From assembly GCA_944384415.1 (NCBI GenBank), contig CALWTF010000003.1:1-64000 (forward strand): a stretch of 64,000 bases of DNA. The letters are read 5' to 3'. Positions within the stretch are counted from its first letter, which is position 1. The number at the start of each line of letters is the position of its first letter. This DNA comes from an uncultured Clostridia bacterium. Lineage in GTDB: Bacteria > Bacillota > Clostridia > Christensenellales > UBA1242. Positions 43,036 to 52,249 of this stretch are shown here, in pieces. Made by a program: the position numbers and the translations under genes. The notes below the pieces were generated by a model. That model did no database searches. It was not told where the DNA came from and worked only from the letters and a program-made list of their open reading frames with translations.

Positions 43036-43070
43036 AAAAATGCAATATTAAATATTGCATTTTAATTTTT
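43036..43070. terminator. Bidirectional terminator between the hydrolase and HAD genes
   Basis: AAAATGCAATATT / AATATTGCATTTT hairpin with A and T flanks, reading into the convergent HAD gene. Confidence 0.75.
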
Positions 43071-43706
43071 AGTTAGGTTTTCAATATAATTATAAATTTT
43101 TTTAAAACTTTTAAAGCAAGTGTAATTTTTTAGTTTAGTGTTTATTCCAATAAAATTTAATCCACAATTTTCTGCTAAACCTGAATCGTTTGAAGAATCT
43201 CCAATTACAATCGAATCAGAAGAGATTTTATCATTAATTTCTTTTTCAATGATTTCAACAACTTTTTTATTTGGTTTTTTAATATCATCAAATTCATAAG
43301 TTCTTTTAAAAACATATTTAAAATATTTTTTTATATCGAATTTGTCTAAAACAAAATCAACCCATTTAGGGCTAGAATTTGAAACTAATATAATAGGAAT
43401 TTTAATATTTTTTAAAAAATCAATTGTATCTTTTTTAATTTTTATTTTTCCTTGATTGTATTTTTTAACATAAACTTCAAATTCAATATCGTTTAAGTTT
43501 TTATACCAAGTTTCATATGTTTTTATGTTTATGTTTAGTAATTCTAGTCTAGTACTTCTAGTTTTAAATTTAGGGTTAAAAAATATTTTTTTTGGATTTT
43601 TAACATTGTTAAATTTCAACCATTCAATCATTAAATTATTATATCTGTTTTTATAATTATGAATTGTTATAGTGTCTTCCAAATCTATTAAAATATATCT
43701 ACTCAA
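43062..43706 (-). CDS. HAD-superfamily hydrolase with Asp-to-Glu change in motif I
   Basis: The 214-residue protein has HAD motifs: motif I LIDLEDTI (residues 6-13), where the nucleophile Asp is present but the second Asp of DxDxT is Glu; motif II ILVSNSSP; motif III Lys in KKPNKK; and motif IV VIGDSSND. It is rich in Lys, Asn and Ile and looks like a cytosolic phosphatase. The Glu may alter proton transfer and lower or change activity. The minus-strand leader before ATG contains AGGAG. Confidence 0.8.
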   Translation of the reverse strand: MSRYILIDLEDTITIHNYKNRYNNLMIEWLKFNNVKNPKKIFFNPKFKTRSTRLELLNINIKTYETWYKNLNDIEFEVYVKKYNQGKIKIKKDTIDFLKNIKIPIILVSNSSPKWVDFVLDKFDIKKYFKYVFKRTYEFDDIKKPNKKVVEIIEKEINDKISSDSIVIGDSSNDSGLAENCGLNFIGINTKLKNYTCFKSFKKIYNYIENLTKN

Positions 43707-43834: not shown

Positions 43835-43863
43835 TTGACTTGATGATTTTTTTATGTTAAATT
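43835..43863 (+). promoter_or_regulatory. Promoter of the ABC exporter leader
   Basis: TTGACT at 43835, 17-base spacer, TAAATT at 43858-43863. Confidence 0.65.
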
Positions 43864-43895
43864 AATATTAATTAAGAAAAAAGGAGGTCATTCGT

Positions 43896-43967
43896 ATGTT
43901 TTATGCTATAATAAATAGTAATTCACAATTTAATTTAATAAAAATGACATACGAATGGTTTTCGTAA
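43896..43967 (+). CDS. 23-codon leader peptide of the ABC exporter attenuator
   Basis: The ORF has ATG 43896, eight bases after AGGAGG (43882-43887), and stops at 43965. The peptide begins MFYAIINSNSQF and ends MTYEWFS. Its start lies in segment 1 and its end in segment 2 of the attenuator, the arrangement expected of a control peptide. It could instead be a peptide exported by the transporter, but no double-Gly leader or Cys pattern is present. It is shorter than normal annotation limits. Confidence 0.68.
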   Translation: MFYAIINSNSQFNLIKMTYEWFS

Positions 43968-43980
43968 GTTGCTTTTTATA

Positions 43981-43997
43981 CTATAAATAATTTATAG
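43981..43997 (+). promoter_or_regulatory. Spacer hairpin between leader ORF and attenuator stem
   Basis: CTATAAA / TTTATAG stem with a TAA loop, between segments 2 and 3. Confidence 0.55.
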
Positions 43998-44035
43998 ATT
44001 ATAAAGAACCTTTCGTATGTTACGGGGGGTTCTTT

Positions 44036-45826
44036 ATGTTTGATAAAAAACAAGTAAGAATAAAAGATTATTTTCTAAAACATAAAGTTGCAATATCATT
44101 TTTTGTATTATTGTATGTAATAAGTTCAATAGCTACATTTTTTGCAATTTTATTTTTTGCAAATGCAGTTGAACAGTTAACATTAGGAAATTATATTGAA
44201 ACAATAAATATTTTTATAATTGCAACAATTATTATAGTTTTTGCTATTTTAACTTGGTATTTATCTGAAATTTGTTATAGTAATTTTTCTCTCAAAATTA
44301 TGTCACAATTAAATTCAGATTTAGCAAGGCAAACTTTTAATTTAAAATCTAAAACTTTTGAAAGCCACAACACTGGTACATTTGTTCAAAGAATAGTTAA
44401 TTCACCTGAAAGCTTGGCGAGAAGTTTTCGAGATATAATTGTAATTTCAACAGATTTGATAACAGAATTATGTGTTGTTGTTTATTTATTGGTAATGAAC
44501 TTTTATATTGGTTTGGTTTTGGTATTTGCGATTATTGTATGTAATGTGATTGATGGATTTAGATTAAAATGTTACAAAAAGAATAACAACAAATTGTTCA
44601 AAGTTGGCGATAAAATAAATTCTTTTACTAATGAAATTATTAAAAGTGAAAAAGATATTAAATCTTTAAATTTGGAAAATTCATTAAATAAAATAATTAC
44701 TAATGAATATGAACAATATAAGGATATTAAATATAAACTGCTTACAAATAATATGAATTTTTTTGTAATAAGAAATATAGTAGTAAATATTTTTACTTTA
44801 GTTGTCTTAATTTTAGGTATATATTTTTTGCAAAAAGAACTTATTACTGTTGCTGTTTTTATGTTAATTTATTCTAGAAAAGAATCATTATATCAGATTA
44901 TATATTATTTAGGAAGTATTAAAACATTTTTAATTGATTTTAATAAATCAAAAGAAAGAATATTAGAGCTTTTTAATAATGAAGAATTTGCTACTGAGAA
45001 ATTTGGTGATAAGGTTTTAGAAAATGCTAAGGGTAAAATTGAATTTAAAAATGTTGCTTATAAATATCAAGAATATAAATATAATGAAGTAAAAAATAAA
45101 TCATATAAAAAAGGTTCTCAAAAACCAGAACGAGTTTTAATTTCTGAAAATCAACTTTTTACTAATTTATCATTTAAAATTGAGCCAAACACTACGGTTG
45201 CTTTTGTTGGTAAATCGGGTAGTGGAAAAACAACAATTTTAAATTTGTTATCAAAAATGTATGAAGTAGATAGTGGTGAAATATTAATTGATGGTATTAA
45301 TATTAATGATTTAACTAAAGAATCTTTGCGAAATAATATTTCACTTGTAAATCAATTTCCATATCTTTTTGATATGTCAATAAAAGAAAATTTATTATTA
45401 TCTAAAAATGATGCAACTGATGAGGAAATTATTAAGGTTTTAGAAGATGCTTCTTTATTAGAATTTGTAAACAGTATACCTAATGGAATAGATACAGTAA
45501 TTGGTGAAAGTGGAATAAAACTTTCTGGTGGTCAAAGACAACGATTAGCTATTGCTAGGGCTATGTTAAAAAAATCACCAATAATAATTTTTGATGAAAG
45601 TACAAGTTCGCTTGACAATTTTGCCCAAAATAAAATAAAAGAAAGCATAGACAAAATGAAAGGTAAAACTACAATTGTCATTGTTGCTCACCGTTTATCA
45701 ACAATTCGAGGTGCAGATAAAATTTTCTTTTTAGATTCTGGGGAAATTATCGATGAAGGTACATTTGATGAATTGTTTGAAAGAAATGAAAAATTTCAAT
45801 CAATGTTTTTGGTTGAAAATATTTAG
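44036..45826 (+). CDS. ABC-type exporter, half-transporter with fused TMD and NBD
   Basis: The 596-residue protein has about six membrane helices in residues 15-300, then the nucleotide-binding domain. Walker A GKSGSGKTT is near 392, Q-loop VNQFPYLFD near 439, signature LSGGQRQRLAIARA near 496, Walker B IIIFDESTSSLD near 516, and H-loop VAHRLS near 545. A Lys/Tyr-rich insert of about 25 residues sits just before Walker A (about 343-370) and is absent from typical exporters. It would act as a homodimer or with another half outside this window. The upstream attenuator suggests expression is induced by a translation inhibitor; this is inference. Confidence 0.92.
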   Translation: MFDKKQVRIKDYFLKHKVAISFFVLLYVISSIATFFAILFFANAVEQLTLGNYIETINIFIIATIIIVFAILTWYLSEICYSNFSLKIMSQLNSDLARQTFNLKSKTFESHNTGTFVQRIVNSPESLARSFRDIIVISTDLITELCVVVYLLVMNFYIGLVLVFAIIVCNVIDGFRLKCYKKNNNKLFKVGDKINSFTNEIIKSEKDIKSLNLENSLNKIITNEYEQYKDIKYKLLTNNMNFFVIRNIVVNIFTLVVLILGIYFLQKELITVAVFMLIYSRKESLYQIIYYLGSIKTFLIDFNKSKERILELFNNEEFATEKFGDKVLENAKGKIEFKNVAYKYQEYKYNEVKNKSYKKGSQKPERVLISENQLFTNLSFKIEPNTTVAFVGKSGSGKTTILNLLSKMYEVDSGEILIDGININDLTKESLRNNISLVNQFPYLFDMSIKENLLLSKNDATDEEIIKVLEDASLLEFVNSIPNGIDTVIGESGIKLSGGQRQRLAIARAMLKKSPIIIFDESTSSLDNFAQNKIKESIDKMKGKTTIVIVAHRLSTIRGADKIFFLDSGEIIDEGTFDELFERNEKFQSMFLVENI

Positions 45827-49905: not shown

Positions 49906-50259
49906 ATGAATACAGACAAAATTTACGCTGAACATATTGCTAATGAATATTCTAAAAAAGAAACAACCAAAGTTATGCAATTAAAAAAATTGGATTCAAA
50001 AGTTAAAACTCCTGCAAATATATTTGCTTATACTTTTGGAATTATAAGCACTTTATTGTTAGGTGTAGGTATGTGCTTGGCAATGGAAGTTATAGGTGCA
50101 GGTATTGTGGCTTTAATAGCAGGAATAATAATTGGAGTAGTTGGTATATTTGGTTGTTCTATCAATTACTATATTTATAAAAAGCTTATTGAAAAAGGTA
50201 AAAATAAATATGGTTCAGATATAATGCGTTTAGCAAAAGAAATAAGTGATGAAGAATAA
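49906..50259 (+). CDS. Small membrane protein of a conserved clostridial family
   Basis: The 117-residue protein has two membrane helices (about 41-60 and 65-90) and charged ends. NTDKIYAEHIANEYSKKETTKVMQLKKLD is a conserved N-terminus in low-GC anaerobes; similar entries are often named dihydropteridine reductase, but no reductase motif is visible here. It starts after AAAGGAGG. Sixteen bases before the TetR-type gene, it is probably the first gene of a three-gene unit. Confidence 0.8.
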   Translation: MNTDKIYAEHIANEYSKKETTKVMQLKKLDSKVKTPANIFAYTFGIISTLLLGVGMCLAMEVIGAGIVALIAGIIIGVVGIFGCSINYYIYKKLIEKGKNKYGSDIMRLAKEISDEE

Positions 50260-50274
50260 AAAGGAGGCAGTATT

Positions 50275-50871
50275 ATGAATAAAGCAGAAAGTAAGTATTA
50301 TAATACTGCTATTTTAATGAATAAGGCTTTAATAGAATTGCTTAATAAAAAAGATTTCGAATTTATTACTGTTAAAGAAATATGCGAAAAAGCTGGAGTA
50401 AATCGTTCAACATTTTATCTTCATTATGAAACAGTAAATGATTTATTGGAAGAGTGTGTTGAAGATATAAATCGAAATTTTATTACTTATTTTGATGAAA
50501 ATACCAAAAAGGTTGTTGAAAAAATTAAAAATTGTCTGGTTGAAGAATTAATTTTAATTACTCCTCAATATTTAACACCTTATTTAACTTTCATAAAAGA
50601 AAATAAAGTTGTACATCAAGTAGCAGTTAAACATTCAAATATTATGAATTCCGTTCAAAAATTTAATTTACTTAATACACATATTTTTAAGCCAATTTTT
50701 AACAGGTTTGGTGTAGATGAAAAAACAGGTAATTATATGATTTCATATTATCTTAGTGGTATTAATGCAATAATAAACGAATGGATTAAAAATGATTGTA
50801 AGGAAGAAATTGATTACATAGAGCAAATTATAATAAAGTGTGTTAGACCAAATCTTGTGGATAAATTATGA
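50275..50871 (+). CDS. TetR/AcrR-type regulator
   Basis: The 198-residue protein has a classic N-terminal HTH: KEICEKAGVNRSTFYLHYETVNDLL (about 36-60), followed by a helical ligand-binding domain. It starts after AAAAAGGAGGC. It would act as a dimeric repressor, and its neighbours on both sides are small membrane proteins, so they may be its targets or sensors. It overlaps the next gene by 4 bases (ATGA). The TetR call is firm; the ligand is unknown. Confidence 0.9.
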   Translation: MNKAESKYYNTAILMNKALIELLNKKDFEFITVKEICEKAGVNRSTFYLHYETVNDLLEECVEDINRNFITYFDENTKKVVEKIKNCLVEELILITPQYLTPYLTFIKENKVVHQVAVKHSNIMNSVQKFNLLNTHIFKPIFNRFGVDEKTGNYMISYYLSGINAIINEWIKNDCKEEIDYIEQIIIKCVRPNLVDKL

Positions 50872-51527
50872 GCATAAAAGAAAATGTTAAAAATTTTATA
50901 AAAAATCCAGATAAAATTGTTATTAGCACTATTTTTTCTGTTCTATTCACTTTTTTCTTTGCTTTGTATAATATAATTTTAGGTTTGTTATATAATGATT
51001 TTTTCGGTATCAGTATTTCTATTTATTATGTATGTTTAATATTAGCAAGAGTAATTGTTGTAAGAATTGAAAACCATATTAAAAATTTTAAGGAAAATAT
51101 AAAATCAAACATTAGGGAAAAAACATATATATGTATGTCGATTTTTATTTTTTTTATTGATTTATGTTTGTTTGTACCAATAACATTAATGATAATTTCT
51201 CCAAAAGATTTTGTTTTTGGAATTATTCCAGCGATAGTTGTTGCAAGTTACACAACATATAAGATTATTATAGCTATAATAAATTATGTTAAGGTAAAAA
51301 AGTTTAACAATTTAGTGTATAAGTTTTTAAAAGAATTATCTGTTATTGATGCATTAGTTTCTGTTTTAGTATTACAACACATTTTAATTATGGTTAATGG
51401 TGGAATGTCGGGAGATATGCTGGTTTTATCTTCAATTACAAGTTTTATTTTTTTAACATTTATAATAATTTTTTCAATTGTTGAAATGATAAAAACTTTA
51501 AAATTAAAAAAATCCAAAATTTTATAA
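50868..51527 (+). CDS. Unknown polytopic membrane protein
   Basis: The 219-residue protein has about six predicted hydrophobic helices (18-38, 45-65, 90-110, 115-140, 160-180 and 185-205) and Lys-rich loops. No family was recognised. Coupling to the TetR-type regulator by the ATGA overlap suggests a membrane sensor or an efflux or permease partner; that is inference. The terminator begins inside its last codons. Confidence 0.75.
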   Translation: MSIKENVKNFIKNPDKIVISTIFSVLFTFFFALYNIILGLLYNDFFGISISIYYVCLILARVIVVRIENHIKNFKENIKSNIREKTYICMSIFIFFIDLCLFVPITLMIISPKDFVFGIIPAIVVASYTTYKIIIAIINYVKVKKFNNLVYKFLKELSVIDALVSVLVLQHILIMVNGGMSGDMLVLSSITSFIFLTFIIIFSIVEMIKTLKLKKSKIL

Positions 51528-51547
51528 ATTTAATTTTGGATTTTTTA
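51506..51547. terminator. Bidirectional terminator between the TetR unit and the HAD gene
   Basis: AAAAAATCCAAAATT / AATTTTGGATTTTTT stem with an AT loop and T-run on both sides. Confidence 0.88.
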
Positions 51548-52249
51548 TTTTATTATTAACCAATCATTTAAGCTTTGAATTTCATTTTCCCAAATTTTAA
51601 CACTTTTTAATGATAATGCTTTTTGTGTTGTTAAGCTTTCACTATTATCCAATTTTTTGATATACTTCCAAAAATTATTGTTATAGTTTTTAACATCATC
51701 TACTAAAAAAACATTTAACCCTAATTCAAGTGCAGGTACAATATCTTTTAAATAATTGTCTCCAATCATTAAAACTTCGTTTGGATTAATTTTTTCTTTT
51801 TCTAAAATATATTTATAATATTTTATTTTTGAGTTTTCTTCAAAACTGTTAGATATTATTTCTTCAAAATAACTTGTATCTAATCCTATCAACTTATTAG
51901 TTATTTTTAAAAAATTTGGTGGTGAATTTGTAACCACATAAAGTTTATGATTAGATTTTAATTTTTTTAAAAATTCAGAATTTGTTGGTCTTAATTTTTC
52001 TGCATTAAGTTGATATGGTGTTGAATTTATGGCATTATACCAATCTTCGGGTTTAAGGTTACAATAGTTTAAAGCTTTTATCAATATACCGGGTTCCCTA
52101 AAATTTGGTTTCTGTGTTATATAAGTCTTATATTTAGAATTATTTTTTGTTAATTCAAAAAGCCTTTCTTCACAATAACTTTGCCAATTTGTAAAATTAT
52201 CTCCTGAATAAAGTGTTCCATCATAATCTAATATAACTAATTTTAACAT
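51545..52249 (-). CDS. HAD-superfamily hydrolase
   Basis: The 234-residue protein has canonical motif I DYDGTL (8-13), motif II VVTNSPP near 95, a Lys near 150 (SKIKYYKY), and motif IV MIGDNYLKD near 166. The cap is inserted after motif I (about 20-80), so it is a C1-cap subtype. It would be a small-molecule phosphatase; the substrate is unknown. The minus-strand leader before ATG has AAAGGAAAA. Confidence 0.85.
   Translation of the reverse strand: MLKLVILDYDGTLYSGDNFTNWQSYCEERLFELTKNNSKYKTYITQKPNFREPGILIKALNYCNLKPEDWYNAINSTPYQLNAEKLRPTNSEFLKKLKSNHKLYVVTNSPPNFLKITNKLIGLDTSYFEEIISNSFEENSKIKYYKYILEKEKINPNEVLMIGDNYLKDIVPALELGLNVFLVDDVKNYNNNFWKYIKKLDNSESLTTQKALSLKSVKIWENEIQSLNDWLIIK

Follow-up and report, generated by a model that had tools for sequence, protein, structure and literature searches.

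A putative ribosome-controlled attenuator combining transcription termination and start-site burial upstream of an ABC exporter gene in uncultured Clostridia

How might a bacterium control an ABC exporter gene that is preceded by a short open reading frame (ORF) and by repeated sequences able to pair with one another in more than one way? The question is raised by one locus in a 64,000-nucleotide stretch of DNA from an uncultured Clostridia bacterium (the window), for which a sequence-only reading had proposed an Erm-like translational attenuator. Comparison with related loci leads us to suggest, with a probability of roughly 0.7, that the element is a ribosome-controlled attenuator of the exporter that acts by both transcription termination and burial of the exporter's Shine-Dalgarno sequence (SD).

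The leader region of the window

The features of the region, given in window coordinates, are these:

43835..43863 (+), probable promoter of the leader-exporter transcript (TTGACT, 17 nt, TAAATT), with a TTGAC box conserved in relatives
43882..43887 (+), SD of the leader ORF, AGGAGG, within helix 1:2 and mostly paired in the full-leader fold
43883..43900 (+), arm 1, whose partner is arm 2 (fold and covariation)
43896..43967 (+), leader ORF MFYAIINSNSQFNLIKMTYEWFS, 23 codons, with its ATG at 43896 and the TAA included (ORF with SD)
43946..43963 (+), arm 2, near the end of the leader ORF, whose partner is arm 1 (OFF) or arm 3 (ON) (fold and covariation)
44000..44017 (+), arm 3, the 5' side of the 3:4 hairpin; the complement of arm 2, TTCGTATGT, extends to 44020 (fold and covariation)
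44021..44038 (+), arm 4, the 3' side of the hairpin, with the exporter SD GGGGGG (44024-44029), a U-rich stretch and the ATG (fold and covariation)
43891-43899, 43947-43955 and 44012-44020 (+), the arm copies TTCGTATGT, ACATACGAA and TTCGTATGT, all exact matches
44036..45826 (+), ABC exporter half-transporter of 596 aa (ABC_membrane and ABC_tran; Pfam PF00664, PF00005)

The AGGAGG, the 23-codon leader and the three arm copies lie exactly where the sequence-only reading had put them, and the hairpin that it described, with 15 bp and a 3-base loop burying GGGGGG up to the ATG, proved to be even longer: 18 consecutive pairs including G-U join 44000-44017 to 44021-44038 across a loop of 3, and both the GGGGGG SD and the exporter ATG lie inside. 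Fold prediction for the RNA of 43868-44060, which that reading had named as a check, gave -46.6 kcal/mol, as compared with -26.9 ± 3.3 for shuffled sequences (z -6.0), and 0 of 200 shuffles equalled it. Among the 25 window genes with a clear SD, which served as controls, the exporter has the most buried one. Helix 1:2 (43883-43900 with 43946-43963) in turn covers most of the leader's own SD, and relatives maintain the pairing between that SD and the end of arm 2. The window thus has a hallmark of ribosome-mediated attenuators in general, a short leader ORF with its own SD before the regulated gene (43882-43967, and likewise in related loci), and one of Erm-type systems, a hairpin that sequesters the SD of that gene; the gene itself is an ABC exporter rather than a 23S rRNA methyltransferase.

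The promoter that had also been claimed is not significant on the window sequence alone, in which 29 sites resembling TTGACT-17-TAAATT were found and 29.9 were expected. Its support comes from related loci, 58 of 59 of which have a TTGAC box ahead of the leader (8 of 59 in the opposite-strand control), followed in 53 of 59 by a -10 box at a spacing of 16-18 nt.

Solved structures related to the window exporter include chains of Sav1866, MsbA and P-glycoprotein. Searches of NCBIfam identified no specific exporter subfamily, every match being below cut-off, and family profiles assign no substrate. The named relatives at 44-56% identity belong to metagenome-assembled genomes of uncultured Clostridia, 'Christensenella sp.' and Candidatus Caccovivens; the assembly of the window's own genome is about 1.05 Mb. 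A gene for a HAD-like phosphatase (43062-43706, - strand; Pfam match) is divergent from the exporter promoter, and a second lies at 51545-52249 (-). At 49906-51527, a regulator that appears TetR-like (50275-50871) is flanked by two small membrane proteins, as judged from translation only.

Conservation and covariation among related loci

A relative of the exporter (E <= 1e-100) is present in 140 of 297 family genomes, and upstream regions were read, with strand corrected, at 129 exporter places including that of the window. About 60 of these loci, from more than 10 genera, share a promoter, a strong SD, a short ORF, an arm 2 near the end of that ORF, and then the hairpin; at several orthologs among the regions read, no leader was recognisable. 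In the relatives' sequences arm 2 reads CATACGAATGGTTC, arm 3 reads CCTTCGTATG and arm 4 reads TACGGAGG-UUUUUUU-AUG, the last being the exporter SD and a terminator tail at once. Two leaders (L009 and L043) keep both arm 2 and arm 3 even though about 100 nt or more have been inserted between them. Several family genomes (e.g. G131, G204 and G251) hold two copies of the exporter, and for some of the second copies (G131:C4, for example) no leader was recognised.

Covariance of the arms across homologous loci, another check named by the earlier reading, bears out its claim that the middle arm can pair with either flank: before orthologous exporters, the mutually exclusive helices 1:2, 2:3 and 3:4 are conserved with compensatory changes. 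In an alignment of 39 distinct block-aligned sequences (A1), for which loci were chosen partly for complementarity and blocks were cut around the arms, helix 2:3 has 91% of its cells paired and 6 of 8 pairs changed on both sides, helix 1:2 has 76% and 7 of 13, and helix 3:4 has 86% and 4 of 13. All three beat slid versions of themselves, both in cells paired and in covariation score. Since shuffles ignore relatedness, whole arms were also swapped among loci. With 27 loci of less than 90% identity, the cognate 1:2, 2:3 and 3:4 helices were the stronger ones (z -7.1, -5.3 and -5.2; 0 of 5000 in each case), and the combinations 1:3, 2:4 and 1:4 gave no signal; a threshold of 80% (14 loci) had the same outcome, with 3:4 at 1 in 5000. 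At the level of sequence comparison, the promoter, the leader ORF and the mutually exclusive helices are established.

A covariance model spanning arm 2 to the exporter start (R1), whose E-values are rough, has one strong match in the window's genome and matches in 47 of 297 family genomes, located before this exporter in 45 of the 47; a leader ORF with an SD precedes the exporter-linked matches. Order-level and class-level samples gave no convincing R1 match beyond the family, all those with E <= 1e-3 being within it, and three weaker order-level matches were rejected as further members, with unrelated genes downstream. The family matches that do not precede the exporter, in G080 and G192, were considered as other genes under the same leader and rejected, since they are leaderless hairpins at the SD of a small membrane protein. 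At both places (L173 and L177; G080:C7 and G192:C32) a U-tailed, SD-containing hairpin stands before a small multi-spanning membrane protein (MKKSQIRCIVGN...), no leader ORF was recognised in the stretch read, and the hairpin is possibly another fusion of terminator and ribosome-binding site (RBS). No Rfam family matched the element at its gathering score, and the weak sub-threshold matches look like chance. An exact pattern scan of viral contigs found no instance of the element, and a literature search found no earlier description of it in these bacteria.

Terminators, leader translation and the proposed switch

A free-standing intrinsic terminator with a U tail separates the leader from the exporter start in 14 orthologs (L016, L020, L037, L053, L054, L059, L061, L062, L066, L068, L071, L077, L103 and L133), and its hairpin leaves out the exporter SD; three of them, L016, L061 and L068, carry a further hairpin at the SD. 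Coevolution of helices 1:2 and 2:3 persists among ten representatives of these orthologs (0 of 5000 permutations). Where terminator and RBS are fused, at least 5 U occur in the 8 nt after the SD in 35 of 37 members (other SDs of the window have a median of 3), and most members have 6-8 U directly after the SD-burying hairpin. Taken together, the free terminators and the U-tailed SD hairpins make it very likely that the family uses transcription attenuation at least in part, and it is most likely a transcription attenuator like bmrB-bmrCD in which the terminator is often fused with the exporter RBS. The window copy is of the fused form, with 6 U of 8 in an interrupted tract (UUCUUUAUG), and a terminator scan of the window found no intrinsic terminator; given this fusion and the interrupted tract, control there probably depends to a large extent on SD burial. 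Of the original description as an Erm-like translational attenuator, then, the leader ORF, the SD burial and the exclusive pairings stand, and the translational label captures at most half of the picture, given the free terminators and the U-tailed fused hairpins.

On the exporter tree, which we labelled ourselves as fused, free or none ('none' meaning that no leader was recognised), the free-terminator label needs 7 changes, at least 5 of which are forced by well-supported branches, and sister positions are held by fused, free and leaderless forms. From this distribution we infer that the ancestor of this exporter group already had the attenuator, that terminator and RBS have since fused or separated repeatedly, and that the element has been lost more than once.

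The leader ORF is closely tied to arm 2. Its stop codon falls 3-25 nt past the arm 2 core in all 39 loci measured, its length varies from 13 to 38 codons across the family, and arm 2 starts at leader nucleotide 26-80, typically near 46. With a ribosome footprint of about 15 nt, arm 2 of the shortest leaders (L065, L075 and L094) would be free only if the ribosome were within about the first five codons, so that early stalling is predicted. Eleven of the 39 loci, among them the window, read arm 2 outside the common HTNG frame, and it is therefore the RNA that is conserved and not that part of the peptide. For nine related leaders dN was 0.35 and dS 0.63 over codons 2-15, and codons 16-20 are invariant in eight of the nine; no codon run common to the leaders was found. 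A conserved arrest peptide was rejected, as the N-termini vary, no motif is shared and arm 2 is read in another frame in those 11 leaders.

We propose that a ribosome slowed on the leader probably turns the pump on, both by polymerase read-through and by uncovering of the start site. When the leader is freely translated, or carries no ribosome, arm 2 would be covered or taken by arm 1, and a finishing ribosome at the stop codon would cover arm 2 and favour 3:4. With arm 2 so occupied, 3:4 would form, terminate transcription where a U-tract follows, and bury the exporter SD in any read-through RNA. A ribosome stalled in the first codons would instead cover arm 1 and leave arm 2 free to form 2:3 before arm 4 is made; the terminator or sequestor would then be blocked, and the exporter transcribed and translated. 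The likeliest signal would be a ribosome inhibitor, sensed as early slowing on the leader without a conserved peptide motif. Because bmrB-bmrCD of Bacillus subtilis is induced by 50S inhibitors and needs translation of its leader (PMC4191407), and because tlrB combines termination with SD burial (PMC6851288), we infer by analogy that ribosome-targeting drugs may induce the exporter. The sequence-only reading had supposed further that the exporter may pump out the drug that induces it.

In equilibrium folding, no position of a ribosome on the window leader released the exporter SD, and partial release was seen in a few relatives, for which reason such masked folding was rejected as a test of the switch. 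When the 2:3 and 3:4 conformers are compared alone, with arm 1 out of play, they are nearly isoenergetic (median -18.2 and -16.0 kcal/mol). Equilibrium folding thus cannot prove the switch, and as the SD stays buried at equilibrium, either the switch works kinetically or the model is incomplete; we think that the RNA commits to one fold while it is being transcribed, before arm 4 exists.

The strongest competitor, to which we give about one chance in five, is pure translational attenuation as in ermC, with the full transcript always made and a stalled ribosome switching only access to the exporter SD. It would suit the window, where both SD and ATG lie inside the hairpin, the run of U is broken (UUCUUUAUG) and no terminator emerged from the scan, but it leaves unexplained the free-standing terminators of 14 orthologs and the 6-8 U after the stem in most fused members, and equilibrium folding does not release the SD. 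Less plausible is that the helices answer another ligand (a protein, a metabolite or temperature) and that the leader ORF is incidental. The 11 of 39 loci, again including the window, that read arm 2 off the HTNG frame do show that part of the peptide to be dispensable; yet a leader ORF with an SD accompanies the element throughout and ends just past arm 2, and neither a compact conserved ligand-binding domain nor an Rfam family was seen. Amino-acid attenuation, in which the leader would sense a shortage of charged tRNA and the exporter would be a metabolic transporter, shares the arm logic of the trp and his leaders and is improbable, given leaders without a common codon run and an exporter, not a biosynthetic gene, downstream. 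An ordinary SD hairpin with chance complementarity can practically be dismissed: AT-rich sequence is expected to yield many weak inverted repeats, but not a fold z of -6.0, the results of the covariation and swap tests, or one element per genome that is almost exporter-specific.

The element may further represent a class of ribosome-speed sensors specific to one lineage of uncultured gut Clostridia, in which the terminator is the exporter RBS hairpin, terminator-only and terminator-plus-RBS forms have switched repeatedly and a stall within the first few codons is sensed although no arrest peptide is conserved, a broader proposal to which we give even odds. The approximately 60 loci form a large natural series of one attenuator before orthologous exporters, and with their free and fused sister pairs one can test how transcription and translation attenuation are related. 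Should the inducer be a ribosome inhibitor, the element would point to a pump for inducible intrinsic resistance in uncultured gut bacteria, one that would go unflagged in gene lists.

Relation to known attenuators

In erm-type attenuators a stalled ribosome shifts the leader from 1:2 + 3:4 to 2:3, freeing the downstream SD (summarised in PMC4191407). The element described here has the same arm scheme around a downstream SD, with the stall-driven shift as a proposal; it differs in the terminators of many members, in regulating an exporter and not a methyltransferase, in a leader SD buried in helix 1:2 and in having no conserved stalling peptide.

Similar in organisation is bmrB-bmrCD, in which a leader ORF, a terminator, an anti-terminator and a predicted anti-anti-terminator also precede an ABC exporter (PMC4191407). 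There, the terminator lies inside a 54-codon leader and the exporter is encoded by a gene pair (PMC4191407), whereas here the leaders, of 13-38 codons, stop short of the terminator, one gene encodes the exporter, and most members have the exporter SD within the terminator. The tlrB (yxjB) gene of B. subtilis likewise joins a leader peptide to termination and SD sequestration, with a ribosome stalling that is a proposal here (PMC6851288). Unlike our element, it encodes an rRNA methyltransferase, has a leader of 9 codons in which an RXR motif causes macrolide arrest, and uses a separate, overlapping terminator and sequestor, with no antiterminator found (PMC6851288); here a single hairpin would do both jobs, and an antiterminator, 2:3, is conserved. 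The patAB attenuator of Streptococcus pneumoniae also places an ABC exporter, in that case a pair, under a terminator, anti-terminator and anti-anti-terminator, but no leader ORF has been described for it (PMC4319486). Dual riboswitch expression platforms resemble the fused form in that the 3' side of the terminator hairpin holds the RBS, a single structure thereby serving for termination and SD burial; they are driven by a ligand-binding aptamer, whereas the driver proposed here is a ribosome on the leader ORF (PMC2258182). Most likely, then, the system belongs to ribosome-mediated attenuation, with terminator and RBS fused in most members.
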